From Nitrospira sp. (GTDB taxonomy: Bacteria > Nitrospirota > Nitrospiria > Nitrospirales > Nitrospiraceae), in the NCBI GenBank assembly GCA_013696305.1, contig JACCYV010000084.1, positions 1 to 37,198 of the forward strand: a DNA stretch of 37,198 bases, in the 5' to 3' direction. The position numbers and the translations under genes were made by a program. This document shows, in pieces, positions 7,590 to 37,198 of this stretch. Each line of letters starts with the position of its first letter. Within the stretch, counting starts at the first letter, position 1. Below the pieces are notes generated by a model. That model was not told where the DNA came from and searched no databases. It saw nothing but the letters and a program-made list of their open reading frames with translations.

Positions 7590-10559
7590 CTACACCTTCG
7601 TCGTCTTGTCGACCTGCCCCAATTCTGCATCGGCTTCCGCCTCTTCCTGCAATCGTTCGCTGCCTTCTTCCGACGGCATGAACTGCTGCACCCTGGTGTT
7701 TCCGCTGTCGACGGCGAATACGCTTCCTCTGGAATCCACCACGATGCCGTAGGGGAAATTGAATTGCCCGTCACCGCCGCCGAACCCACCCCACTGAGCG
7801 ATGAAATTCCCCTCGCGGTCGAACTTTTCCACGCGATGGTTGCCCGTATCCGTCACGTACACATCCCCTTGGCCATCGACGGCAATGCCCCAAGGCGATC
7901 GCAGCTGTCCGGCCTCCTGCGCCAATGGGCTGCTGGCATGCCCGGCTTCTGAACTGCCTCCCCATTTGGTAAGCAACTGCGGCAGCACATTGGTACTGGT
8001 ATCGAATTTCTGAATGCGGTGATTTCCCATGTCGACGACGTAGACTGTGCCATCGGCCTGATCAACGGCAATCCCCCGGGGGAAATAGAACTGGCCGTCG
8101 CCGTTTCCGAAACTCCCCCACGACATGATGAACTCCCCGCCCATATCGAATTTCTGCACTCTGAAATTTGCGCTGTCGACGACATAAATGTAGCCGCGCA
8201 CGCGATCGATCGCGATACCCCATGGCGCATTGAACTGGCCTTCGCCGTTTCCACGCGAGCCGAACTTCATGATGTAGCCGCCCAACTTTCCGTCAAATTT
8301 CTGGACGCGATGATTGTTCGTATCGACCACGTAGACGTCGCCTTTGGCATCGCACGCAATCCCCGTCGCATTGTGAAAATTGGCGTTGGCGGCACCGAAG
8401 TTTCCCCACAGGATAATGAAATTCCCGGCGCGGTCGAACTTTTGGACCCGATTGTTGCCGTTGTCCACGACAAAGATGGCGCCTTGTTGATCGATGGCCA
8501 GCCCATACACCGGAGCCATGAACTCCCCGCCGTGCAGTAATGAAGCGCCGCGACCAGGCTTCCCCCATTTGGAGACGCAGAGATACCCGGAGGTGTTGAC
8601 CAAAATGGTGGCGCTCGCCGGCGTCGAAATATTGTTCCCGACGTCTTTAAACCAGACCATGACCGTCTTCTGCCCGTCGCTCGGAGAAAGAATAAAGGGG
8701 ATCGTCGCGCCGAACTTGATTTCCGGTGGAACTTCAACCCACCCCGGCGTTCCCGCCATCGGCGTCATCGGATTTTCGGAGATATAGTAGGCGGCAACGC
8801 CGGTATCGAGATCTGTGGCGGAGATGGTCACCACAATTTCAGGCGAATTCGTCATGAACGCGCCGTGGTTGATGACTGCATAGGGCGTTTGCGGGGCCGT
8901 GATATCAATCAGAACCGGCGTAGTCGACACCTCTTCGGAAAGTCCGCTCTCTGTGCCATCCTCATACACCGCTGTCAGGGCATAATAATAAGCCTGATCA
9001 TTGGTTAATCCGGTGTGATTGTAAGGGCTGGATACTCCCTCGATCTTCGTACCGCCTTCCAGCGTCAGCTTTGCCGTAGTGTGGAAATAGAGATTGTACG
9101 AGACTGCTCCGGGCACATCCATCCAACTTAAAAAGGTTTCGGTGTCTCCGGGCTTGATGGCCACGTTGCGCGGAATCGGATAATCGGTCACTACCTGAGC
9201 CCGTTCGCGTTCTTCCTTCCCCCGATTTAATTCTTCATCTGTGGGTACATACTTAATCACCCGGTGATTGCCACTGTCGACGACATACACGGCTCCTTCT
9301 TTATCGACGGCGACCCCGGACGGAAAATTCAGCTGACCCTCCGTCCGACCGCGATTGCCCCAGGCACAAAGGAACGTGCCGTTGCCGTCAAACTTTTGGA
9401 TGCGGTGATTGCCCTGATCGACGACGTAGACATTACCCAAGGCGTCGCAAGTCACTCCCCAGGGTGCTTTAAACTGGCCCGGGCCACTTCCCTCGCGTCC
9501 CCATTTGGTCAAAAAACTGCCGCGCGTGTCGAATTTCTGGATGCGATTGTTGCCCTCGTCGGCGACATACGTATTCCCTACAAAATCCACCGCCACTCCA
9601 CGCGGGAAGAAAAACGCGCCGTCAAAGCTTCCATCCCGTCCCCACTTCAATAGCGGCGTGCCGTCACCTTTGAATTTTTGAATACGGGCGTTATTGGTGT
9701 CGGTGACATAGATGTTACCTTCTTGGTCGGTCGTCACACCCCATGGTGCATCGAATTTATTCATATCGGCTCCGCGCCAGGCAAATCCGAATTTACCCCA
9801 CGATTTCATAGGATTGCCGTCGGTATCGAGACGCTGCACGCGATTGTTTCCGGTATCGGCCACATATACCTGTCCCTCTACATTGGTGGTCAACCCGCGC
9901 GGATAATAAAATCCGCCCTCTGCGCTGCCTGCTTCTCCGCCCCAGCGCCCGAGAAAGGTACCCTCTTTGTCGAATTTCTGAATCGAATGATTGTCCGTAT
10001 CGGCGACGTACAGATTGCCGTCCTTATCCACGGCAATGCCGGTCGGGGAGCTGAACTCGCTGTCTTCCACGCCTTCCCGCCCGATAATCTTGACAATCAG
10101 ATAGGGAGCTGGAATCGCCATCACTTCCCGCGATTCAGGGCTTTCACCCTTCTGGGTCACGACGGTGACGACATAGTGATAACAGGTCCCATTTGCCAGA
10201 TCGTCGTGCATGAAGGGTGATTGTGCGCCTTCAATGCAGGTCCCTTTTTCCTTGGTCACCCCGATGACGGTCTTGAAATCATCCGCGCTCGCGATGGGAC
10301 GCGTCAGTTCTGAAAACTTGATCAGCACTCCCTTGGTGGTCATGAAATATAGGTTGTAATACATTGCCTCCGGCACCGCATCCCAGGTGATCATCACCCG
10401 GCCATTTCCAGCCTTGGCGGCTACCCCACTCGGCGCGGGAGGGAGATCCTCCTCCTCCGCGACGGAATCCCCGGAGCCCCATTCGCTCTGACTTCCCTCC
10501 GCCGTGAGATGATGGCGGTCAAACCGAAACATTTCGTCGAGCAGCCAGGCCTTGGTCAT
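7590..10559 (-). CDS. NHL-repeat double beta-propeller protein with Fn3/Ig-like modules
   Basis: This 989-residue protein is built from repeats. It starts with a Fn3-like module (about 40-140), followed by six NHL repeats of the form PWGVTTDQEGNIYVTDTNN-RIQKF-G-WG. A second Fn3-like module and an Ig-like region come next (about 450-650). Six more NHL repeats run to near the C-terminus. Twelve repeats in two sets of six suggest two six-bladed propellers. NHL propellers bind protein, RNA or sugar ligands; no catalytic residue is apparent and the ligand is unknown. I choose ATG 10559, which has GAGGAA 6 nt upstream, over an upstream TTG. No signal peptide is visible, although exported relatives are common. 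A downstream palindromic element separates it from guaB. Confidence 0.85.
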   Translation of the reverse strand: MTKAWLLDEMFRFDRHHLTAEGSQSEWGSGDSVAEEEDLPPAPSGVAAKAGNGRVMITWDAVPEAMYYNLYFMTTKGVLIKFSELTRPIASADDFKTVIGVTKEKGTCIEGAQSPFMHDDLANGTCYHYVVTVVTQKGESPESREVMAIPAPYLIVKIIGREGVEDSEFSSPTGIAVDKDGNLYVADTDNHSIQKFDKEGTFLGRWGGEAGSAEGGFYYPRGLTTNVEGQVYVADTGNNRVQRLDTDGNPMKSWGKFGFAWRGADMNKFDAPWGVTTDQEGNIYVTDTNNARIQKFKGDGTPLLKWGRDGSFDGAFFFPRGVAVDFVGNTYVADEGNNRIQKFDTRGSFLTKWGREGSGPGQFKAPWGVTCDALGNVYVVDQGNHRIQKFDGNGTFLCAWGNRGRTEGQLNFPSGVAVDKEGAVYVVDSGNHRVIKYVPTDEELNRGKEERERAQVVTDYPIPRNVAIKPGDTETFLSWMDVPGAVSYNLYFHTTAKLTLEGGTKIEGVSSPYNHTGLTNDQAYYYALTAVYEDGTESGLSEEVSTTPVLIDITAPQTPYAVINHGAFMTNSPEIVVTISATDLDTGVAAYYISENPMTPMAGTPGWVEVPPEIKFGATIPFILSPSDGQKTVMVWFKDVGNNISTPASATILVNTSGYLCVSKWGKPGRGASLLHGGEFMAPVYGLAIDQQGAIFVVDNGNNRVQKFDRAGNFIILWGNFGAANANFHNATGIACDAKGDVYVVDTNNHRVQKFDGKLGGYIMKFGSRGNGEGQFNAPWGIAIDRVRGYIYVVDSANFRVQKFDMGGEFIMSWGSFGNGDGQFYFPRGIAVDQADGTVYVVDMGNHRIQKFDTSTNVLPQLLTKWGGSSEAGHASSPLAQEAGQLRSPWGIAVDGQGDVYVTDTGNHRVEKFDREGNFIAQWGGFGGGDGQFNFPYGIVVDSRGSVFAVDSGNTRVQQFMPSEEGSERLQEEAEADAELGQVDKTTKV

Positions 10560-10875
10560 GGTGTTCCTCGTGGTACGAGACAAGTGAAGATTAGCGGATG
10601 TTTCAATAACTTAGATCGGGCAGTCTAACAAAGCGAAAAGAAGGGAGTCAAGGCACGACCAGCGCTGTCTGAGGCGGCGACCTGGCTTCTCCTAACGATT
10701 TCCGAGTGACCTAACGCATGAACTGAACGGGCCCCGTACATCTCAGTGAGCTCGTACGGCGTCCATCCCCCCAAAGCTGGATGGACGCGCATCTTCCGAA
10801 TGTCATAGGCTCTGCACTGTCGAAGCTAAAAAACACTGCGCTCGCCCAATAAGATGAACCTATCGGAGGTGTACC
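10560..10875. other. Divergent intergenic region with two hairpins
   Basis: No gene is supported in this 316-bp spacer between two divergent genes. It contains a perfect 10-bp stem (10759-10768 with 10779-10788, GCGTCCATCC/GGATGGACGC, 10-nt loop). A smaller CCGTAC/GTACGG pair lies just to its left (10734-10739 with 10754-10759). Neither is followed by a T-run. The ribosome binding site of the next gene (CGGAGGTG) lies at the right end. No convincing promoter could be assigned. Confidence 0.4.
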
Positions 10876-14589: not shown

Positions 14590-15261
14590 ATGCCTCCCTC
14601 CGCTGCCCATAGGATCACTCATACCGGCCTACGCATCCTCTGTCTGTGTATCTCTATGCTGCTCGCCGATTTCCACCCGGCCGCGGCCGAATCCATCGTG
14701 GAAATCCCGGTACTCGCCGCGATCCAGTCCAACGACAAGGGGGTCTTCGAAGTCCTCCTACTGCGATGGGATCGCCTCCCAAATCCCTCTCCCATGGTGC
14801 TGCAGTGGCAAGGCGGTAACATCCGGCCCGGGCAGAGCAATCTCAGTTCCATGGCCCTGGCCTTTCAATACGCCATTGACCACACGCCGCATATCGACCA
14901 TGCGGGCACCGTCAGCGCCATCGGCATCGCCTATACCTCGACCGGCACCGACGGTCCAAGCGCCGGTGCGGTGATGACGGTGGGGTTTGTAGCGCTTCTG
15001 AACGGGGATCGCATTCAGCGAGGCATCGCCATGACCGGCACGATCACCAAAGATGGCACGATCGGGCCCGTCGGAGGCATTCCTGATAAGATTAGCGCAG
15101 CCGTTCGCGAGGGTTATCGCACCATCCTCATTCCCGAAGGCCAACGACACGATCCGCGCTGGAACATCGACCGGCTTTCCTGGGATCTCAACGTCGAAGT
15201 CAAGGAGGTCAGTACGATTGAGGAGGCCTACCATCTCATGACCGGACGCACACTCGATTAG
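14590..15261 (+). CDS. Exported stand-alone Lon-type (S16) protease domain
   Basis: This 223-residue protein has an N-terminal signal peptide (ILCLCISMLLADFHPAAA) and then a single domain that matches the Lon proteolytic domain. Key residues are the catalytic Ser124 in TDGPSAGAVMTVGFVALLNG and Lys167 in GPVGGIPDKISAAVREG, the Ser-Lys dyad of family S16. There is no AAA+ ATPase domain and no substrate-recognition N domain. It would therefore act as an ATP-independent protease, or a scaffold, in the periplasm; substrate unknown. No Shine-Dalgarno sequence precedes ATG 14590, and an upstream TAGACT could place the transcript start very near it. It is divergent from the pentapeptide-repeat gene and convergent with the next gene. 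Confidence 0.8.
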   Translation: MPPSAAHRITHTGLRILCLCISMLLADFHPAAAESIVEIPVLAAIQSNDKGVFEVLLLRWDRLPNPSPMVLQWQGGNIRPGQSNLSSMALAFQYAIDHTPHIDHAGTVSAIGIAYTSTGTDGPSAGAVMTVGFVALLNGDRIQRGIAMTGTITKDGTIGPVGGIPDKISAAVREGYRTILIPEGQRHDPRWNIDRLSWDLNVEVKEVSTIEEAYHLMTGRTLD

Positions 15262-30126: not shown

Positions 30127-30540
30127 TTATCGAGGCTTGGCGGACACGGCACCGAACCAACGATAGCGATTGCGAGCGACGAATCCGTATAGCCGAGAAA
30201 CCATTGGCTTGAAAGCAGGCACCGTAAGAAAGGCTACTAATAATCGACCACCGGGAATTCTGGGGAGGAGAGGCAAAATAGCATCCAGCCCTCGCCGAAT
30301 CTGGCCGTCGCCACCCACCCAATAGGCCACCTCCGGTCGACCAGGCCGATACTCAGGGCCAAGAACTTGTTCGGCCTCTAGGCTTTGATAAAGGATGTAT
30401 CTGACAGAGGCTGATTGGTTTGAGCGAGACAGCCGTTCGATTCCTTCCTTGCTCTTCACGCAGAACCGACACTGCCCGTCATAAATAACCGTGCAGCAAT
30501 CTTGCTCGAATATTGGGCTCACTCTCGTTGCCGTACCCAT
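30127..30540 (-). CDS. DCC-family (DUF393) thiol-disulfide protein
   Basis: This 137-residue protein starts at ATG 30540, with AGGA eight nt upstream; a start 7 codons earlier is possible. It has the family's N-terminal signature VIYDGQCRFCVKS, with Asp21, Cys24 and Cys27 in a D-x2-C-x2-C motif like that of thioredoxin-fold proteins. A DGQIRRGLDAILPLLPRIPG segment follows, with a hydrophobic region near 100-120 (LLVAFLTVPAFKPMVSRLYG). It ends in a basic YGFVARNRYRWFG segment, also typical. DCC proteins are predicted oxidoreductases without a settled substrate. It is divergent from the small membrane-protein gene. Confidence 0.85.
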   Translation of the reverse strand: MGTATRVSPIFEQDCCTVIYDGQCRFCVKSKEGIERLSRSNQSASVRYILYQSLEAEQVLGPEYRPGRPEVAYWVGGDGQIRRGLDAILPLLPRIPGGRLLVAFLTVPAFKPMVSRLYGFVARNRYRWFGAVSAKPR

Positions 30541-30616
30541 AAAAAATCCTATCACCAACACAGGTTTGGGAACAAGGCAACTTGCGGTGGACTGAGGCGG
30601 CAGCTATAGTGCCGCT

Positions 30617-31033
30617 ATGAGAGCAACCCGCCCGGTTATCGGACTACTTGTCGCACTGATCGCGGTGGAAGTCAGCCTGTTTATACTAGGCTCGACCTCC
30701 CCTCTCTCAACCATTAAGAATAGCGTGCTGGTTGGGTTTCTGTTCGGGTTTCCGGCACTGCTGGTGGGAGGACTTCTTGTGATCCGTCAGCAGTGGATCG
30801 CCATGGTCGCGGTGCTGTACAGTACGATCGCACTGGCGCTTGACATGGCAACTATCGTCCAAGAAGCCAGCCAACCTGCACCCCGCTCGGTGGTGTTGGC
30901 ACTCACCCTGATGAGCAGCTTACTGAACTTTTTGATTATGGTCTTCGGAGGCCGTTGCGCTCTCACCTTCAAGCCGGACGAGCAGCCTCCAGCAGGCCGC
31001 CATCCCAATCTTCAGTTCCCTGCTTCATCTTAA
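30617..31033 (+). CDS. Small multi-pass membrane protein of unknown function
   Basis: This 138-residue protein has four predicted membrane segments: about 7-27 (VIGLLVALIAVEVSLFILG), 36-56, 61-80 (WIAMVAVLYSTIALALDMA) and 92-112 (VVLALTLMSSLLNFLIMVF). A short polar tail follows. I do not recognise the family. Its last 65 bp overlap the end of the convergent methyltransferase gene, so either the true C-terminus or the pairing is unusual; the hydrophobic core lies outside the overlap. No strong ribosome binding site is seen. Confidence 0.6.
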   Translation: MRATRPVIGLLVALIAVEVSLFILGSTSPLSTIKNSVLVGFLFGFPALLVGGLLVIRQQWIAMVAVLYSTIALALDMATIVQEASQPAPRSVVLALTLMSSLLNFLIMVFGGRCALTFKPDEQPPAGRHPNLQFPASS

Positions 31034-31982
31034 TGGGTCTGATCTTCACGTATCCTACCGCTTTAAGCCACCGAGCGGTATCCCTCAACGAGTAGGTGTT
31101 GCCACGCTCGGTAAAGAGCAACATGCTCACGGCAAAAAGGCTCGCTTCTTCGGGATAGAGGCCCTGTCGATCATGAAGAAATGCATCCTGAATGACAAGC
31201 CGCCCACCGGGAGAAAGCGCCGAAATGATCCGCCGAAACAATGCTTGGTTTGCGTCGGGTGAATAAATATGGAGCACATTGGAACACCATACCAGATCAT
31301 ATTGTCCGGGAAGGTCTTCCTCCATAAAATTGAGCGGCAGAAAAATCAATCGCTTCCGCGCCTTGTGCCTCTCAGCAATCTCTTTCGCCACTGCTAGGGC
31401 CGCTGGACGATCACAGATCGTCGCCTTCAGTTTTGGATGACGTGACAAGAACGCCATCGCGTAGGTCCCGGGCCCGCCGCCGAGGTCCAGCAAGGTCCCA
31501 ACCCGACTCAAATTCATCTGCCGTGCGACTCTTGCCGCTACATCAACTGATCGGTGGTGCATGGCCCAGGTAAATTGACGTCGATAGCCCGGCGCTTCTG
31601 GCTCATCATGATCTACCGGACGCCCGCTTCGAACCACCTGAGTTAGCTGCGACCAGTCAGTCCAGTGACTTTTCATCAACTCGACATAGGCACCCCGGTA
31701 TTTTGGATGCTTGGCATTCAATATCGTCGCGGCGAAAGGACTGTTGCGGTAGAGGTTGCCGCGCTTCTTTAACAGTCCACACATCGCCAAGTTCCGGCAG
31801 AGAATGTCCAGTCCGCGCTCATTCACGTCGAGAGTCTCGGCCAACTTTGCAATTGACCAAGGTCGAGCTGCAATCGCTGTGAAGAGATCCAATTCAAGTG
31901 CGGTCACAATCACCCGTGGCAATCGATAAGCGGCTAGAACAGCGCGGAAGGCTTCGATGGTCGTGATGGAAGTAAGCGTCAT
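30969..31982 (-). CDS. O-methyltransferase family 2 (acetylserotonin-type)
   Basis: This 337-residue SAM-dependent enzyme has the two-part layout of the family. A winged-helix dimerisation domain (about 10-95) has LELDLFTAIAARPWSIAKLAETLDVNERGL and a wing ending in YRNSPFAATIL. A Rossmann methyltransferase follows, with motif I TLLDLGGGPGTYA (163-175), ATICDRP for ribose binding, WCSNVLHIYSPD, and LSPGGRLVIQDAF. Family members methylate phenolic or N-acetyl small molecules, or quinone-like compounds. The substrate here is unknown. It is the last gene of a six-gene minus-strand operon, 27 nt after the preceding gene, and overlaps the convergent membrane-protein gene. Confidence 0.9.
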   Translation of the reverse strand: MTLTSITTIEAFRAVLAAYRLPRVIVTALELDLFTAIAARPWSIAKLAETLDVNERGLDILCRNLAMCGLLKKRGNLYRNSPFAATILNAKHPKYRGAYVELMKSHWTDWSQLTQVVRSGRPVDHDEPEAPGYRRQFTWAMHHRSVDVAARVARQMNLSRVGTLLDLGGGPGTYAMAFLSRHPKLKATICDRPAALAVAKEIAERHKARKRLIFLPLNFMEEDLPGQYDLVWCSNVLHIYSPDANQALFRRIISALSPGGRLVIQDAFLHDRQGLYPEEASLFAVSMLLFTERGNTYSLRDTARWLKAVGYVKIRPIKMKQGTEDWDGGLLEAARPA

Positions 31983-32009
31983 GCAGATCCCAGCAGGGTC
32001 CGATTTTCG

Positions 32010-32456
32010 CTATGCCCGATTCTTAAGGAGGTTCTGGCACCAGTGCACGGCAGCAACGACCTCGTCAGGCCGCTGAAAATCGATATCTTTAAGAAAGATG
32101 ATAGCGACGAAATCATCATTCATATCGGTCTGTTCCACAAAGCCCGCCTTGATAAGAGTTGGTCGCATTTTTGACACCACCGGTCCCAGAAAGTACTTGG
32201 CCTGTTTCGCCACCTCATCGGTTCCCAAATCCTCCGGCGTCCCGTCACACATCAGACTCTTCACATCGTCCATATCAATTCCGTGCTGACAGAGGAGTTT
32301 TCCATCAGGCCTGACTTCCAGCAACCAATCGCCATCCCCTAGATCGAGAGCCAGGGCTCCGCCGGGTTCAAATTCGTAAAATTGTGGGACGGCTGCAATC
32401 AAATGGGAACGAGTCTGTTCCCATCGTTCCCATGATGGGAGGGCAACGGTAGTCAT
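32010..32456 (-). CDS. 148-residue protein of unknown function in the redox/TPR operon
   Basis: I do not recognise this protein. It is soluble, acidic and without signal peptide or membrane segment. It has a regular alpha/beta look (GGALALDLGDGDWLLEVRPD; DDFVAIIFLKDIDF) and two isolated cysteines (LLCQHG, LMCDG). Its start overlaps the stop of the upstream TPR gene by 4 nt, so the two are probably made together in fixed ratio. The methyltransferase gene follows. Its place in the middle of a tightly packed operon is the only functional clue. Confidence 0.7.
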   Translation of the reverse strand: MTTVALPSWERWEQTRSHLIAAVPQFYEFEPGGALALDLGDGDWLLEVRPDGKLLCQHGIDMDDVKSLMCDGTPEDLGTDEVAKQAKYFLGPVVSKMRPTLIKAGFVEQTDMNDDFVAIIFLKDIDFQRPDEVVAAVHWCQNLLKNRA

Positions 32457-33280
32457 GCGCGTGACCGCCGAGGTTGGGAAGTCGGATCTTCGGCATCGAG
32501 ACGGGCGCGAAGACGTTCGAGCCTGGCGGTGTTCTCTGCCAATTTGGGAAGATCGTATTTACGGTCCATACGCACAACTTGTTCCAACAAATCAACCGCC
32601 ATCTGCAACTGCCCGAGATCCTCATAACATTGGGCCAAGACGTAGCGAGCCCCGCCTGTACGTAACTCATCGCGGCTCCGCTCTGCAATCGATTGGCTGG
32701 TATGGCAGCAGGCAATAGCGTCTTCGTATCGTTTTTGAATCGCAAAGGTTCGTCCCATCATTCGCCAGGCATCGGAGACGCCCCCTTGATTATTCAGACG
32801 GCGCATGAGCACCAACGACTGCTCATAGTATCGGAGGGCATCCTCGAACTGACCGATCTCGCGCGCTACCAGACCTAGATCAGAAAACAATACCGCCTTC
32901 CCAAGTTCGTCATGCACGCGAGTCATGATATCGAGTGCCTCGAGGTAGTAGGCTCTGGCCCGATCCCACTCACCGGCATCGGCGCGCAAATTTCCAAGAT
33001 TGGCTAGAGTCGTCCCGATACCCTTCTCATCCCCAAGAACCTTTTGCAGCTCCAGCACTTCTTGATAATAGCTCTGTGCCGAGTCGCGGCGACCACTGAC
33101 GGCGCAGATGTTGCCAAGATTGCCTAATGTCGCACTTAACGCCCGATGATCACCCGTCAAACGGTCACACTCCAACGCTTTCGCGTAACAGGCGTACGCA
33201 TCGGTGTAATGCCCCCGTGCAAAATGCTCATTGCCTTGACGATTGAGTTCCTCTGAGAGTCCGTTTCGAAGCGCCATCAT
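32453..33280 (-). CDS. TPR-repeat protein
   Basis: This 275-residue protein is almost entirely tetratricopeptide repeats of about 40 residues, the longer form with Gly/Leu at fixed sites. Examples are ALSATLGNLGNICAVSGRRD, IGTTLANLGNLRADAGEWD and AVLFSDLGLVAREIGQFED. About six repeats run from residue 10 to 235. There is no enzymatic domain, signal peptide or membrane segment, so it is a cytoplasmic protein-binding scaffold. It starts 3 nt after the metallo-beta-lactamase-fold gene and overlaps the next gene by 4 nt. It may hold the neighbouring proteins of the operon together; that is inference. Confidence 0.85.
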   Translation of the reverse strand: MMALRNGLSEELNRQGNEHFARGHYTDAYACYAKALECDRLTGDHRALSATLGNLGNICAVSGRRDSAQSYYQEVLELQKVLGDEKGIGTTLANLGNLRADAGEWDRARAYYLEALDIMTRVHDELGKAVLFSDLGLVAREIGQFEDALRYYEQSLVLMRRLNNQGGVSDAWRMMGRTFAIQKRYEDAIACCHTSQSIAERSRDELRTGGARYVLAQCYEDLGQLQMAVDLLEQVVRMDRKYDLPKLAENTARLERLRARLDAEDPTSQPRRSRA

Positions 33281-33283
33281 CCC

Positions 33284-33880
33284 CTATGCCTGCAGCGCAT
33301 CACCCACTGCTTGTTTGGCTCCAACTAAAATGCTAGCGCCATCCCCGACAAGAATCGAGTCGAAGTTGTATTTCAACAACCGGCGGAGGCCTTCTTTCGC
33401 CTTGGCTGGGTCGCGGTATTTCTCCGGTGTCATTAAACTCAAGAATCCTGCCGGTTTTCCAATCAGTGCATCCCCGACGATGAGGACGCCTTTTCCCTGC
33501 TGAATATATAGTGTCGATTCACCGGGGGATTTCTGGTCGTCGAGGTGAATGACCCAAATGCCACCCGGCAAGAGTTCGCCGTCCTTGAAGGTCTTGTCCG
33601 GCTTCAGGTCCATGTGGAGCGCATCCCCATCAGGAATCTGCACCTGGCAGTGAAACTCTTCCTGGTACGTCGCCGCCTCACGAGCGTGGTCACGATTGGT
33701 GACGATAATGTAGTCGAGGCTCCCCTGACGCCGAATAAACGTGCCGGCCTCGGCTGTCATGGGTGGAGGGTCAACGAGAACCTTATGTTCACCGACGCTG
33801 AGAAACAGTCCGTTAAAATCGATCTGCTTCTCTTGAGAAAACCATGACCATTGCCACATCCCGGGAAGGAGCTGTTTCAT
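33284..33880 (-). CDS. Metallo-beta-lactamase-fold protein with altered metal site
   Basis: This 198-residue protein follows the MBL fold: an N-terminal strand pair (NGLFLSVGEHKVLVDPPPM), then IIVTNRDHAREAA where the HxHxDH motif should be. It continues with GIWVIHLDDQKSPGESTLYI and GVLIVGDALIG near the third and fourth ligand regions. The usual first two His are Thr61 and Arg63; Asp64 and His65 remain. A single-metal or non-catalytic role is therefore likely, and I expect it is a subfamily feature rather than a mutation. GAGG lies 8 nt before the start. It is the third gene of the operon, 24 nt after the 79-aa gene and 3 nt before the TPR gene. Confidence 0.75.
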   Translation of the reverse strand: MKQLLPGMWQWSWFSQEKQIDFNGLFLSVGEHKVLVDPPPMTAEAGTFIRRQGSLDYIIVTNRDHAREAATYQEEFHCQVQIPDGDALHMDLKPDKTFKDGELLPGGIWVIHLDDQKSPGESTLYIQQGKGVLIVGDALIGKPAGFLSLMTPEKYRDPAKAKEGLRRLLKYNFDSILVGDGASILVGAKQAVGDALQA

Positions 33881-33904
33881 GTCTGTCGCCTCAACTTATC
33901 GGAA

Positions 33905-34144
33905 TTATAAAGCTGTAATCGCATCCTGCAGGGTCTTCGTGACCTTTGCGAGGATGTCGGCCTCGCTGGGGATATCGATAATATCGTCTTCTGACACCGT
34001 AATGAATTTACGATTGGGGCCTTTTGTCAGAGAGATGAGGAACATGCTATTGGTCGGCTTTGTTGGAATCACGACCTCAACGGTCCCATCAATCCCTTGT
34101 ACCACTTCGAGGAACTTGAGTTTTCCTTCTTCCCACTCGTCCAT
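33905..34144 (-). CDS. 79-residue protein of unknown function
   Basis: I do not recognise this small acidic protein. It has a clear AAGGGG ribosome binding site 5 nt upstream and sits 9 nt after the TlpA-like gene and 24 nt before the MBL-fold gene. This makes it a real operon member rather than a chance frame. The sequence (GTVEVVIPTKPTNSMFLISL; FITVSEDDIIDIPSEADILA) suggests a small beta-rich fold with a C-terminal helix. No cysteines, signal peptide or membrane segment. Confidence 0.7.
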   Translation of the reverse strand: MDEWEEGKLKFLEVVQGIDGTVEVVIPTKPTNSMFLISLTKGPNRKFITVSEDDIIDIPSEADILAKVTKTLQDAITAL

Positions 34145-34153
34145 GAATCCCCT

Positions 34154-34699
34154 TTACATGGCTCCTGCGCCCGCAGTGGGGCCAGAGGCCAACAGTTTTT
34201 CCACTTCTTGTATGATCGCTTCGGCGCCAGCCAGCTCCATATTGCCTACACGTTGCCACCTGATCACACCCTGCTGGTCGATCACATACACGTTGGGGAT
34301 GAACTTCCCGCCTCCATAGAGTTTGTCGGTGGCCTTGTTCGGATCGAGCAAATACGGATATGTGACCTTGACCGGAAATGCGCTCAGAAATTCACCCACG
34401 TCGCGTTTGGTATTCCCGGATGAGTTGATACCGACAACGGCCACGTTTTTGCCGGCCAGGGCTTCATGAACTTTTTGCAAATTAGTTCCTTGCATCATAC
34501 ACGGATCACAGATGTGGAATAGTCCCAGCACGACCACCTTGCCCTTTAAGTGCTCGAGCGACACCGCATCGCCCGTCACTGAGGTCAGGGCAAAAGCCGG
34601 GGCCGTCTCACCCACCTTAAAAAATCCAGCGGCCCAAATCAGTTGAGTCGCCCAGAAGGGTGCCAATGCGATTACCACAGCTATTAACATGCGCTTCAT
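34154..34699 (-). CDS. Exported TlpA/ResA-like thioredoxin-fold protein
   Basis: This 181-residue protein begins with a signal peptide (MLIAVVIALAPFWATQLIWAA). The thioredoxin/peroxiredoxin-like fold follows: VGETAPAFALTSVTGDAVSLE, then the redox-active Cys64-Asp-Pro-Cys67 in FHICDPCMM, and IPNVYVIDQQGVIRW with the conserved cis-Pro. Such periplasmic proteins reduce disulphides, for example in cytochrome c maturation. The CDPC centre is less common than CxPC forms such as CEPC. The ribosome binding site AAGGAGGG is strong. It is the first gene of the six-gene operon, and the only exported one, so its link to the cytoplasmic partners is unclear. Confidence 0.87.
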   Translation of the reverse strand: MKRMLIAVVIALAPFWATQLIWAAGFFKVGETAPAFALTSVTGDAVSLEHLKGKVVVLGLFHICDPCMMQGTNLQKVHEALAGKNVAVVGINSSGNTKRDVGEFLSAFPVKVTYPYLLDPNKATDKLYGGGKFIPNVYVIDQQGVIRWQRVGNMELAGAEAIIQEVEKLLASGPTAGAGAM

Positions 34700-34891: not shown

Positions 34892-36187
34892 TCACCCAAC
34901 GCTATGTATCCATCGCACGACGGCTTGACGAATGCGAACGGATGGGACACATTTTATCGCAATCCAATGGAACGGCTTAAGACAAATAAACAGCCCTCGA
35001 AGCCTCCGCTGGAACCGGAACCACGGCAACGACCTGCTGATTACCTCTGCCTCATCCCGACATAGTACTACAGCAAGTTTCCAGCGGTCGCACCAGGAAT
35101 CTTTGAGGATCACGTACAGGGCATCGGCACAGTCCTCGTCGATTCCCTCACTCGAATTCTTCAGTAACTGTTTCGGCATGTGCCGCACAAGCGCAGGAAT
35201 GTCCGCATCGCCCTCAATCGCATGGAGAACGGTGCGCGGCAACACAATGTCAAACATGTTCCTGGCCATTGCCAGGCCCAGCAGTACCATCCGTCGGCAG
35301 CGCCATTCACCCGCCTGAAACAATATTCGGCTCCAATCCAATGCCGGCCGTCGACGCACCAACTCAGCCACATCACACACCCACTTTAATTGCTCCCACG
35401 CATGTTTCGATCCATGCACACAGAGCACGATCAACAGATCCTCGGGACACAGTCCCATTACGGTTTTGGTCGGCAAATGAACCGGCTTTAACCTGTCCCA
35501 AAACACGCTCCGATCCAGCCGGAATCCGAAGTGGGGCCGAGCCATAACCCATTGAAGATCCACTGCGACGATGCCGTTTTTCTTTTGAAAAAAGTGATAC
35601 GGCTCATCGGACTCCTGTCCATCCCCCATATCCTGACTGGTGAGTTGATATCCCTTCGACCACAATACTTGCCTGGCCTGAGGGATGAACGCTTGGTCGA
35701 CGATCAAATCCAAGTCCGCGCATTCACGCAGGCTGAAATCGCCATAAGCGGTCTGCGCCAGCGTCACACCTTTGAAGGGAATAGCACGCACGCCTGCCGC
35801 CGCCAGCGCATCGACCACCATTACCAGCTCTTTAGCAAGTAACGTATTCAAGAGGACAGTGGCCTGGATGTGACGGCGAAACGCTTCGTGAATGACGGCA
35901 GGGACTGTTGCAGGGCAGATTGCGGACAGATTGCGATACACGAGAGGCGCCACGCCGTGAGCCCTCGAGAGGCGCCACACCATATCCCAATCAATGGCCT
36001 CACTGACCAAATCCGCTACTTCCACCCGAAGAAACTCGCTGATCGTCGTCCGGGCGCAAAGTACGAGCAAGCGGCCCTCCGCATGCATGTGAGTTACCCC
36101 CTGGCAGGGCATCCTCTGCCCGTGCAAGAACGTTCTTGGATGAAATTGTTTCGAACGTGCAGCTATCGGCCTTAGCTTCTGCCCCAT
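34892..36187 (-). CDS. Nucleotidyltransferase-fold protein (PF14907 type)
   Basis: This 431-residue protein matches the uncharacterised nucleotidyltransferase family by its core RAIPFKGVTLAQTAYGDFSL, followed by RECADLDLIVD. Lys139-Gly140 and the Asp158/Asp160 pair resemble the metal-binding DxD of polymerase-beta-like enzymes. Later conserved parts are VDLQWVMARPHF, LCPEDLLIVLCVHGSKHAWEQLKWVCDVAEL and DWSRI. The ATG at 36187 has AGGAG 7 nt upstream, inside the end of the kinase-like gene, and is separated from its stop by 1 nt. A shorter start near 36088 would remove an unconserved ~33-residue leader. Family members often lie near PqqD-like, kinase-like or polysaccharide genes; the substrate is unknown. 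Confidence 0.82.
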   Translation of the reverse strand: MGQKLRPIAARSKQFHPRTFLHGQRMPCQGVTHMHAEGRLLVLCARTTISEFLRVEVADLVSEAIDWDMVWRLSRAHGVAPLVYRNLSAICPATVPAVIHEAFRRHIQATVLLNTLLAKELVMVVDALAAAGVRAIPFKGVTLAQTAYGDFSLRECADLDLIVDQAFIPQARQVLWSKGYQLTSQDMGDGQESDEPYHFFQKKNGIVAVDLQWVMARPHFGFRLDRSVFWDRLKPVHLPTKTVMGLCPEDLLIVLCVHGSKHAWEQLKWVCDVAELVRRRPALDWSRILFQAGEWRCRRMVLLGLAMARNMFDIVLPRTVLHAIEGDADIPALVRHMPKQLLKNSSEGIDEDCADALYVILKDSWCDRWKLAVVLCRDEAEVISRSLPWFRFQRRLRGLFICLKPFHWIAIKCVPSVRIRQAVVRWIHSVG

Positions 36188-36188
36188 G

Positions 36189-37198
36189 TCAACGCTCCTG
36201 TCTCGCTTGCCGTTTTTGTAGAAGAGGCGTCACTAGCCAGGGCAAGTCCGTGATATCACGCCCAAAGTGAAGCCTGTAACAGTCTGTTTGCTCAACCAAT
36301 TGCACTAGTGCCTGAAATTCCCGACGAGCTATCTCGGCGTCATACACGAGCAACGAATGCGGGAGGATCAGTTCCAACGCCAGCTTCTTCGACAAGGGTT
36401 CCAGGCAGCTATGTGGAGAATCAATGATCTCAGGGAACAAAATCACAGCCGGTTCACAGGGTTTCCCTAATGGACCCGGATATATATCCTCCGCGTGAAA
36501 ATATCGCTTGGGAGGAGCGGCATGGAGCATGGATGGGAGCGCATCGCGCAATTCAGGAAAGAATGATACGGTCTGATCAGTCACGTTGATCTTCAGAGGA
36601 TAGGGTAGAATCTCCACTCGAGCGTCCCGGAGGCGAAAGAATGGATGGTCATCAGAAAGATACCGGTAACCCGACCGTAGGAGGGACAGGAACGAAGTGG
36701 TCTTGCCGCGACCGCTGAATCCGGGGATCAATATACCCTGTCCATTTTTTTCCAACGCCGTGGCATGAAAGGTATACAGTCCTCGCCGTTTCAGGAGTTC
36801 GGTCATAGCGAAATGCACGAAGCTGGCTCGGATATCGGGCCCCATCGCATCGGGGCGCACCAAATATCCCAATGCAGATAGCGATGCCGCATCAATGACC
36901 AGCACCCCTTCCTCATGAAAGTCCGCAATCAATAGTCCATGATCGGAATAGATATCGCACAGCCAGGTCGTCCCCCGGTCGCCCCCCACTACGAGACCTG
37001 TGCCGCTGTATAACCGTTCGGCCTTCTGGAAAATTCGAACTGGAACGTCCTCACGTCGCTCGATCGCGCTGAATTGCATCAGCATGGGTTGACCGTCAAA
37101 GGTCGTACATTGAAAGTATCCGAGTAATGACGCAACGGAACCGGCCAACGCCGGTGAGTTGGTGATGAATTTCAACTCTATGCCATGGACACAGAGTA
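36189..37198 (-). CDS. HPr kinase-like P-loop protein, probably continuing past right edge
   Basis: The minus-strand frame is open from 37198 to the stop at 36189. A TTG at 37175 could be a start. But the residues before it (VHGIE) have no stop, no ribosome binding site is visible, and family members begin a little earlier, so I treat it as cut at the 5' end. It shows the Walker A GFSGRGKTT about 25 residues after ELLKRRGLYTFHATAL, then YRYLSDDHPFFRL with the acidic pair of the HprK C-terminal kinase fold. There is no full HPr kinase regulatory domain. The paired nucleotidyltransferase begins 1 nt after its stop, so the two are translationally coupled. Target unknown; not the classical HprK of sugar regulation. 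Confidence 0.82.
   Translation of the reverse strand, partial: LCVHGIELKFITNSPALAGSVASLLGYFQCTTFDGQPMLMQFSAIERREDVPVRIFQKAERLYSGTGLVVGGDRGTTWLCDIYSDHGLLIADFHEEGVLVIDAASLSALGYLVRPDAMGPDIRASFVHFAMTELLKRRGLYTFHATALEKNGQGILIPGFSGRGKTTSFLSLLRSGYRYLSDDHPFFRLRDARVEILPYPLKINVTDQTVSFFPELRDALPSMLHAAPPKRYFHAEDIYPGPLGKPCEPAVILFPEIIDSPHSCLEPLSKKLALELILPHSLLVYDAEIARREFQALVQLVEQTDCYRLHFGRDITDLPWLVTPLLQKRQARQER

Follow-up and report, generated by a model that had tools for sequence, protein, structure and literature searches.

A set of six genes was analyzed on contig JACCYV010000084.1 (positions 1 to 37,198, forward strand) of the Nitrospira sp. assembly GCA_013696305.1, which totals 3.25 Mb in 379 contigs, this being contig 40. 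The whole 37,198-nucleotide (nt) stretch is referred to here as the window, and the genes as A to F; four of them form a core and the two outer ones are optional members.

Gene A, 34154..34699, minus strand: exported TlpA/ResA-like thioredoxin-fold protein of 181 amino acids (aa) with a CxxC motif (CDPC); optional member.
Gene B, 33905..34144, minus strand: protein of 79 aa without a family; core member.
Gene C, 33284..33880, minus strand: pseudo-metallo-beta-lactamase (PF14597) of 198 aa; core member.
Gene D, 32453..33280, minus strand: tetratricopeptide repeat (TPR) protein of 275 aa; core member.
Gene E, 32010..32456, minus strand: protein of 148 aa with a predicted type III secretion chaperone/YbjN fold; core member.
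Gene F, 30969..31982, minus strand: family-2 O-methyltransferase with a dimerisation domain, 337 aa; optional member.

Calling of open reading frames (ORFs) reproduced the six ORFs, their common strand and the intergenic distances from A to F (9, 24, 3, -4 and 27 nt) given in an earlier note made from the sequence of this stretch alone. Because the sites returned by promoter and terminator scans were no more frequent than in shuffled sequence, a single transcription unit is proposed from the spacing and from the overlap of the E start codon with the D stop codon by 4 nt. The ratios of non-synonymous to synonymous substitution (dN/dS), calculated between the window and four relatives, point to purifying selection on all six genes (0.02-0.18 wherever calculable, the synonymous proportion pS being saturated in 6 of the 24 comparisons). 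D is the slowest-evolving, at ∼0.02. At this locus, the closest relatives of the window are the Nitrospira records L125 and L167 (loci, genomes and families are given by our own L, G and f numbers).

To compare gene order, one representative per genus was taken (20 loci) and gene runs were counted by script. A-B-C-D-E lie on one strand and in this order in every genus locus that is long enough, and F follows in all except L026. B-C-D-E is contiguous in 19 of the 20 representatives and the complete A to F in 17. Two of the loci short of A to F end inside the set (L038, L041), and the third is L026; L038, the only representative lacking B-C-D-E, begins inside D at a contig end. A wider sample came from a scan for B across ∼85,000 species genomes, which yielded 157 confirmed loci; 80 of these, the named loci, were retained. 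The titles of these 80 are all of Nitrospirota type except L126 (Nitrospinota), which groups among the loci of f2, the second family of the order, on the tree described below. The named and unnamed loci partly overlap, as seen in some identical rows of that tree, and their counts are not to be added. The named loci include 69 with B-C-D-E and 47 with A to F, with L161 as an additional 48th A-to-F locus in which D is split into two matches. Of the 11 named loci without B-C-D-E, seven lie outside the order (L098-L102, L108, L122) and L117, L129 and L165 stop at a contig end. In L157, D (7899-8321) is truncated to about half and is followed by opposite-strand genes that resemble respiratory complex I by eye, which may be a real break or an assembly join.

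All seven f2 loci carry A to F complete, and among the loci compared no family other than f2 and that of the window, both of the same order, showed all six genes in this arrangement. The earlier note had named conservation of gene order in other genomes as the check on its proposal; the order is kept across the window's family and f2, well beyond close strains. The six genes are thus confirmed as a real conserved gene set, whose order recurs beyond chance.

Within the window's family, 111 of 118 genomes, covering 20 of 22 genera, contain E, in a single copy every time. Among the seven genomes without E, the contig of two (G007, G026) stops at C, before the expected position of D and E; four (G003, G017, G029, G109) lack C as well, and of these only G017 is more than 90% complete; and G115 has only weak C-like matches. 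In a phylum-wide sample of 217 genomes, E was found in 69 (54 from the window's family, 12 from f2 and three of the nine class members outside the order), and was not found in the phylum's other 142 genomes. B reaches further within the class, occurring in 44 of the 58 genomes of the class sample.

The earlier note took the six genes as one unit. They do belong together, with a conserved order, but the unit is not indivisible: it consists of a four-gene core, B-C-D-E, with A and F as dispensable ends. In 17 of the 80 named loci, A is missing although the sequence extends at least 1500 nt upstream of B. F is missing from two of the 80 with at least 2500 nt downstream; the loci lacking F despite that length are L146, L155 and L026. 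A tree of 96 B-C-D-E sets (92 of them different), obtained by a short search and with 17 weakly supported inner branches, requires at least seven state changes for A, at least two for F and two for an aldo/keto reductase gene (PF00248). The latter lies between E and F in six of the 20 genus loci, counting a remnant in L030 (7519-7848) from which most of the middle is gone. Since its rows were selected for having B-C-D-E, the tree is silent on loss of the core, which the family-wide count of E covers.

Relocation of the missing ends was also considered and rejected. In seven genomes with an A-less locus, all matches to A are distant paralogs (E 1.9e-13 to 2.4e-16; control match in N. moscoviensis, E 3.3e-100). 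Similarly, the genomes reached via L146, L148 and L155, together with G005, hold only F paralogs near 1e-60, and other species of the genus of G005 retain F at the locus. In these four genomes F is lost rather than moved.

Outside the order, pieces of the set occur in other pairings, several of them with a thiol-redox gene that also accompanies the set in the window. This DCC1-like gene and the gene that parts it from F are as follows.

DCC gene, 30127..30561, minus strand: DCC1-like thiol-disulfide oxidoreductase (PF04134, E 2.1e-16), outside the coordinates covered by the earlier note.
Convergent gene, 30617-31033, plus strand: protein of 138 aa with no Pfam match, overlapping the end of F by 65 nt.

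Family f7 has DCC-B-D-E (L081, L085, L086, L098, L100), and in its loci L087, L099 and L102 B and E are present with no recognised D in between. Family f3 has B-C adjoining a rhodanese gene (L097; rhodanese by Pfam) and, in L083 and L203, D-E. C-D-DCC is found in f37 (L195). In f8 (L196, L197), the gene after C encodes a TPR protein whose matches to D (2e-45 and 8e-44) fall within the range of D paralogs, and in f6 (L200) a gap of 32 nt separates C from hemE (Pfam) downstream of it. Other members of the set are located elsewhere in the genome in f8, f3 and f7. Because the same genes occur in different pairings in these families, their linkage exceeds inherited order, and the pairing of DCC with core genes in f7 and f37 makes the DCC gene of the window part of a wider neighbourhood.

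Further genes were observed at these loci. Beyond C-hemE, L200 (7995-10708) carries genes resembling hemH and hemG by eye. In L196 and L197, C and the TPR gene are preceded by a GBBH-like (PF06155) gene and a fusion of ribosome-hibernation-like and cold-shock domains; a pterin carbinolamine dehydratase gene adjoins these loci, and apparently one in f7 too. B occurs without the rest of the core in L089 and L094, from two other families, flanked by genes that by eye encode NAD kinase and alanine dehydrogenase/transhydrogenase subunits.

At the D-E junction, an overlap of exactly 4 nt occurs in 78 of 102 loci and one of 1-30 nt in 93 of them, and the overlap is retained in f1, f3 and f7. A 4-nt overlap is also found for C-D in 27 of 97 loci and for E-F in 54 of 89. 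Counted in the same way, the A-B junction, used as a control, overlaps by 1-30 nt in 1 of 80 loci.

Protein C belongs to Lactamase_B_5 (PF14597; E 5.4e-26, 91.7 bits against a gathering score of 28.4). As the earlier note had proposed, metal ligands of this metallo-beta-lactamase (MBL) fold are lost: four of the seven canonical ligand positions, assigned by motif and by what we take to be the MBL numbering, are replaced in 20 of 20 aligned rows. In all of these rows an invariant TNRDH stands in place of HxHxDH, the histidine of PGH is replaced by Lys117 and that of GHG by Asp180, while the ligands Asp64, His65 and Asp137 are retained; a GDG stretch is also invariant. C thus lacks the combination of HxHxDH and further His/Asp/His ligands that marks an active MBL-fold hydrolase.

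Protein D matches TPR_12 (E 7.2e-38, 129.1 bits) and contains six TPR_2 stretches (Pfam). Protein B has no family in Pfam or NCBIfam, and a sequence search of the PDB gave no match. Its predicted structure is alpha-beta-beta-beta-alpha-alpha, with a predicted local distance difference test (pLDDT) score of 94.1 for the best of five models, which range from 67.1. The best VIA-align match of this model is the hibernation-promoting factor HPF (4hei_B; Z 5.4, below the level of chance arrangements), and the best Foldseek match, to the Alu domain of the signal recognition particle, is weak (E 3.3e-2).

Protein E likewise has no family in Pfam or NCBIfam. None of the 21 E members scanned matched the YbjN or CesT Pfam families at E ≤ 1, and by sequence nothing in the PDB was significant (best E 0.046, de novo designs). 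A structural model was generated with AlphaFold2 from 72 aligned rows (pLDDT 88.7; predicted template modelling score, pTM, 0.82); the alignments of E took in rows of f7 but none of f3 or f6. The leading VIA-align rows are to SycT, at Z 8.7 and 8.5 (2bsh_B: Z 8.7 over 107 residues, root-mean-square deviation 3.5), on a scale where Z under ∼8 is common by chance and where a family absent from the list is not thereby excluded. Type III secretion chaperones and YbjN-type proteins account for about 32 of the 50 rows listed. The topology of that fold, given as alpha-bbb-alpha-bb-alpha in an excerpt of PMC3575483, fits the predicted order of helices and strands in E, which has one extra helix. E is therefore predicted from the model to have the type III secretion chaperone/YbjN fold. 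Two of its cysteines are conserved: C56 is found in every one of the 72 rows, C140 in 90% or more.

The optional proteins have assignable domains. A is an AhpC-TSA/Redoxin protein (PF00578, E 1.4e-18; Pfam) in which both CxxC cysteines are invariant in 19 of 19 rows. F matches PF00891 (E 2.3e-20, 73.3 bits) and PF08100 (E 7.6e-11, 42.1 bits), both above cut-off.

Taken together, these data lead us to favor, tentatively and at somewhat less than an even chance, a reading in which B-C-D-E make up a cytoplasmic complex of a TPR protein and a chaperone-like adaptor with a dead MBL subunit. D would be the TPR scaffold, and D and E would most likely form a complex that grips one or more client proteins by an extended segment. 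By analogy, E is probably chaperone-like and dimeric. C, with most of its metal site lost, would probably be a binding or scaffold subunit rather than a hydrolase, and B a small accessory subunit. A, F, the aldo/keto reductase and the DCC thiol protein would be optional partners of this core. Holding a client is the likeliest job of D-E, because YbjN-type proteins act by contacts (AmyR/YbjN are said, in an excerpt of PMC5398634, to work through protein-protein interaction without enzymatic action), because DdrB is bound by DR1245, another protein of this fold (PMC3575483, excerpt), and because E is coupled to the TPR gene. Clients may include redox proteins, which is conceivable since thiol-redox genes (A, DCC, rhodanese) recur beside the core, none of them obligatory. 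The conserved order, the division into core and optional genes, the lost ligands of C and the D-E overlap are shown by the data, and the fold of E is predicted; from these patterns we infer complex formation, client binding and the redox nature of a client. Of the two themes raised in the earlier note, that of a maturation complex built on the TPR protein fares the better and gains from the predicted fold of E and the D-E overlap, even if the complex itself is deduced.

Several points weigh against this reading. The four core proteins need not be one complex, because C stands apart from B or D-E in f7 and f8. The overlap script took the start codon nearest the upstream stop, which favors small gaps, and the overlap counts include some contigs present twice. 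The fold assignment of E hinges on one group of rows just above the level of chance, and Foldseek gave no match for E at E ≤ 0.001 (best 2.9e-2, the top rows being the ExsC chaperone). Finally, C retains three ligand positions and, judging from these residues, may hold a mononuclear metal site.

A bolder extension is possible but doubtful: that B-C-D-E is an undescribed, Nitrospiria-specific protein-handling machine for a process nearly all Nitrospirales need, built from a chaperone fold outside a secretion system, a TPR scaffold, a pseudo-hydrolase and a 79-aa subunit.

The core could instead be a regulatory or stress-response complex, YbjN-like, that detects a given state and in response acts on a further regulator rather than serving as a chaperone. 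YbjN proteins, whose fold is predicted for E, are described in the excerpt of PMC5398634 as stress-response regulators acting via protein contacts, and the conserved cysteines of E, with the thiol-redox neighbors, could make a sensor. However, Pfam and NCBIfam identify no DNA-binding domain, kinase or receiver among the six proteins, and the thiol partner A is repeatedly lost. This explanation is rather unlikely.

A role in the maturation of nitrite oxidoreductase or cytochromes c, in which A keeps outside thiols reduced and the cytoplasmic core handles the apoprotein, appears quite improbable. It would suit the restriction of the six-gene order to two families, the ResA-like character of A (PRK03147, E 2.3e-15, under the cut-off) and the position of C upstream of hemE in f6. 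What weakens a link with nitrite oxidation is that genes or parts of the core are also present in f3, f6, f7, f8 and f37, where a full-length NxrA-like protein was not found, and that Nitrospiria outside the nitrite-oxidising families encode no nitrite-oxidising proteins, as stated in an excerpt of PMC12342949. Within the window's family, G002, G004, G005 and G019 have E but gave no full-length NxrA-like match; assemblies of this kind, however, often lack multi-copy genes. The narG model TIGR01580 was uninformative, one true narG-like gene being found in 35 genomes. The repeated changes in the state of A also speak against this role.

That the order is kept by inheritance alone, with a shared operon and no shared function, is decidedly improbable. 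The downstream flanking genes (DCC, pyrroloquinoline quinone (PQQ)-like, peptidase MA) are conserved in position too, which would fit simple inheritance. Against this, the same genes are differently paired in other families, the D-E overlap is kept in f1, f3 and f7, and the ends are lost repeatedly while the core is not.

The other theme of the earlier note, redox sensing by A coupled to small-molecule methylation by F, for which C and D would provide the scaffold, is very unlikely. The six genes do stand together in most Nitrospiraceae, E and F often overlap, and F matches natural-product O-methyltransferases. But A is exported and F is not, and A and F are the members lost while B-C-D-E remain, so that this purpose is unsupported: both are dispensable by the tree counts above, and the seven A-less genomes retain only distant paralogs. 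A defense system was rejected, as the six proteins gave only generic TPR and methyltransferase matches against PADLOC.

Elsewhere in the window, several features were observed. The convergent 138-aa gene occupies the same position in most loci of the window's family. Directly upstream of A lie genes for an uncharacterised nucleotidyltransferase (PF14907) and an HprK-related kinase (34892-37196, minus strand), a pair that co-occurs only in some genera and is possibly the border of another cluster beyond the window. A 502-aa phage-type integrase (PF00589; 24285-25793, plus strand) perhaps marks an insertion reaching ∼27500. The window also encodes an NHL-repeat protein of 997 aa (7590-10583, minus strand) and a 223-aa protein (14590-15261, plus strand) that matches only the Lon proteolytic domain (PF05362) and has an apparent N-terminal export signal.

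Nitrospira account for a large share of global nitrite oxidation, and a single-copy set in nearly every member of the order points to a basic, undescribed cell process. A secretion-chaperone-like fold outside a secretion system, combined with a beta-lactamase fold that has lost its active site, would provide a clear test of the role of such proteins, and the 79-aa and 148-aa proteins gain a context and a first structural hypothesis. The earlier note knew of no described pathway with this set, and none turned up here: literature searches, supplements excluded, found no report of the operon, of PF14597 or of a relevant Nitrospira YbjN-like protein, and the parts of PMC6606698 and PMC8115632 covered by a term look-up hold nothing on the operon. 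The parts are known folds; their combination is, within the literature searched, new to us.

Comparison with known systems places E, C, A and F each near a described family and apart from it. Beyond SycT, E resembles AmyR (5fr7_B) and YbjN (6vu7_B), both at Z 7.5, and DR1245 (4h5b_B) at Z 6.6. Unlike type III secretion chaperones and YbjN proteins, it has no Pfam match, is translationally coupled to a TPR gene and carries an extra helix; no secretion-system or effector gene was recognised among the neighbors read, not all of which were searched. C gives a full-length profile match to 2p97_A (E 1.8e-30), which we take to be from a cyanobacterium, and shares with it the degenerate TN.DH, SK.PGE, GD and GDG stretches; in the present set, C has a fixed operon setting beside B, D and E. 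A has in common with TlpA and ResA the AhpC-TSA/redoxin domain, the CxxC motif and a proline after the isoleucine before the fourth strand, yet it scores 56.9 bits against PRK03147, for which the NCBIfam cut-off is 170, and is optional here. Finally, F shares PF00891 and PF08100 with the family-2 O-methyltransferases (CrtF/BchU, RedM, MmcR), with PDB relatives to 2.6e-36, but falls far below the BchU cut-off (70.9 versus 276.1 bits).

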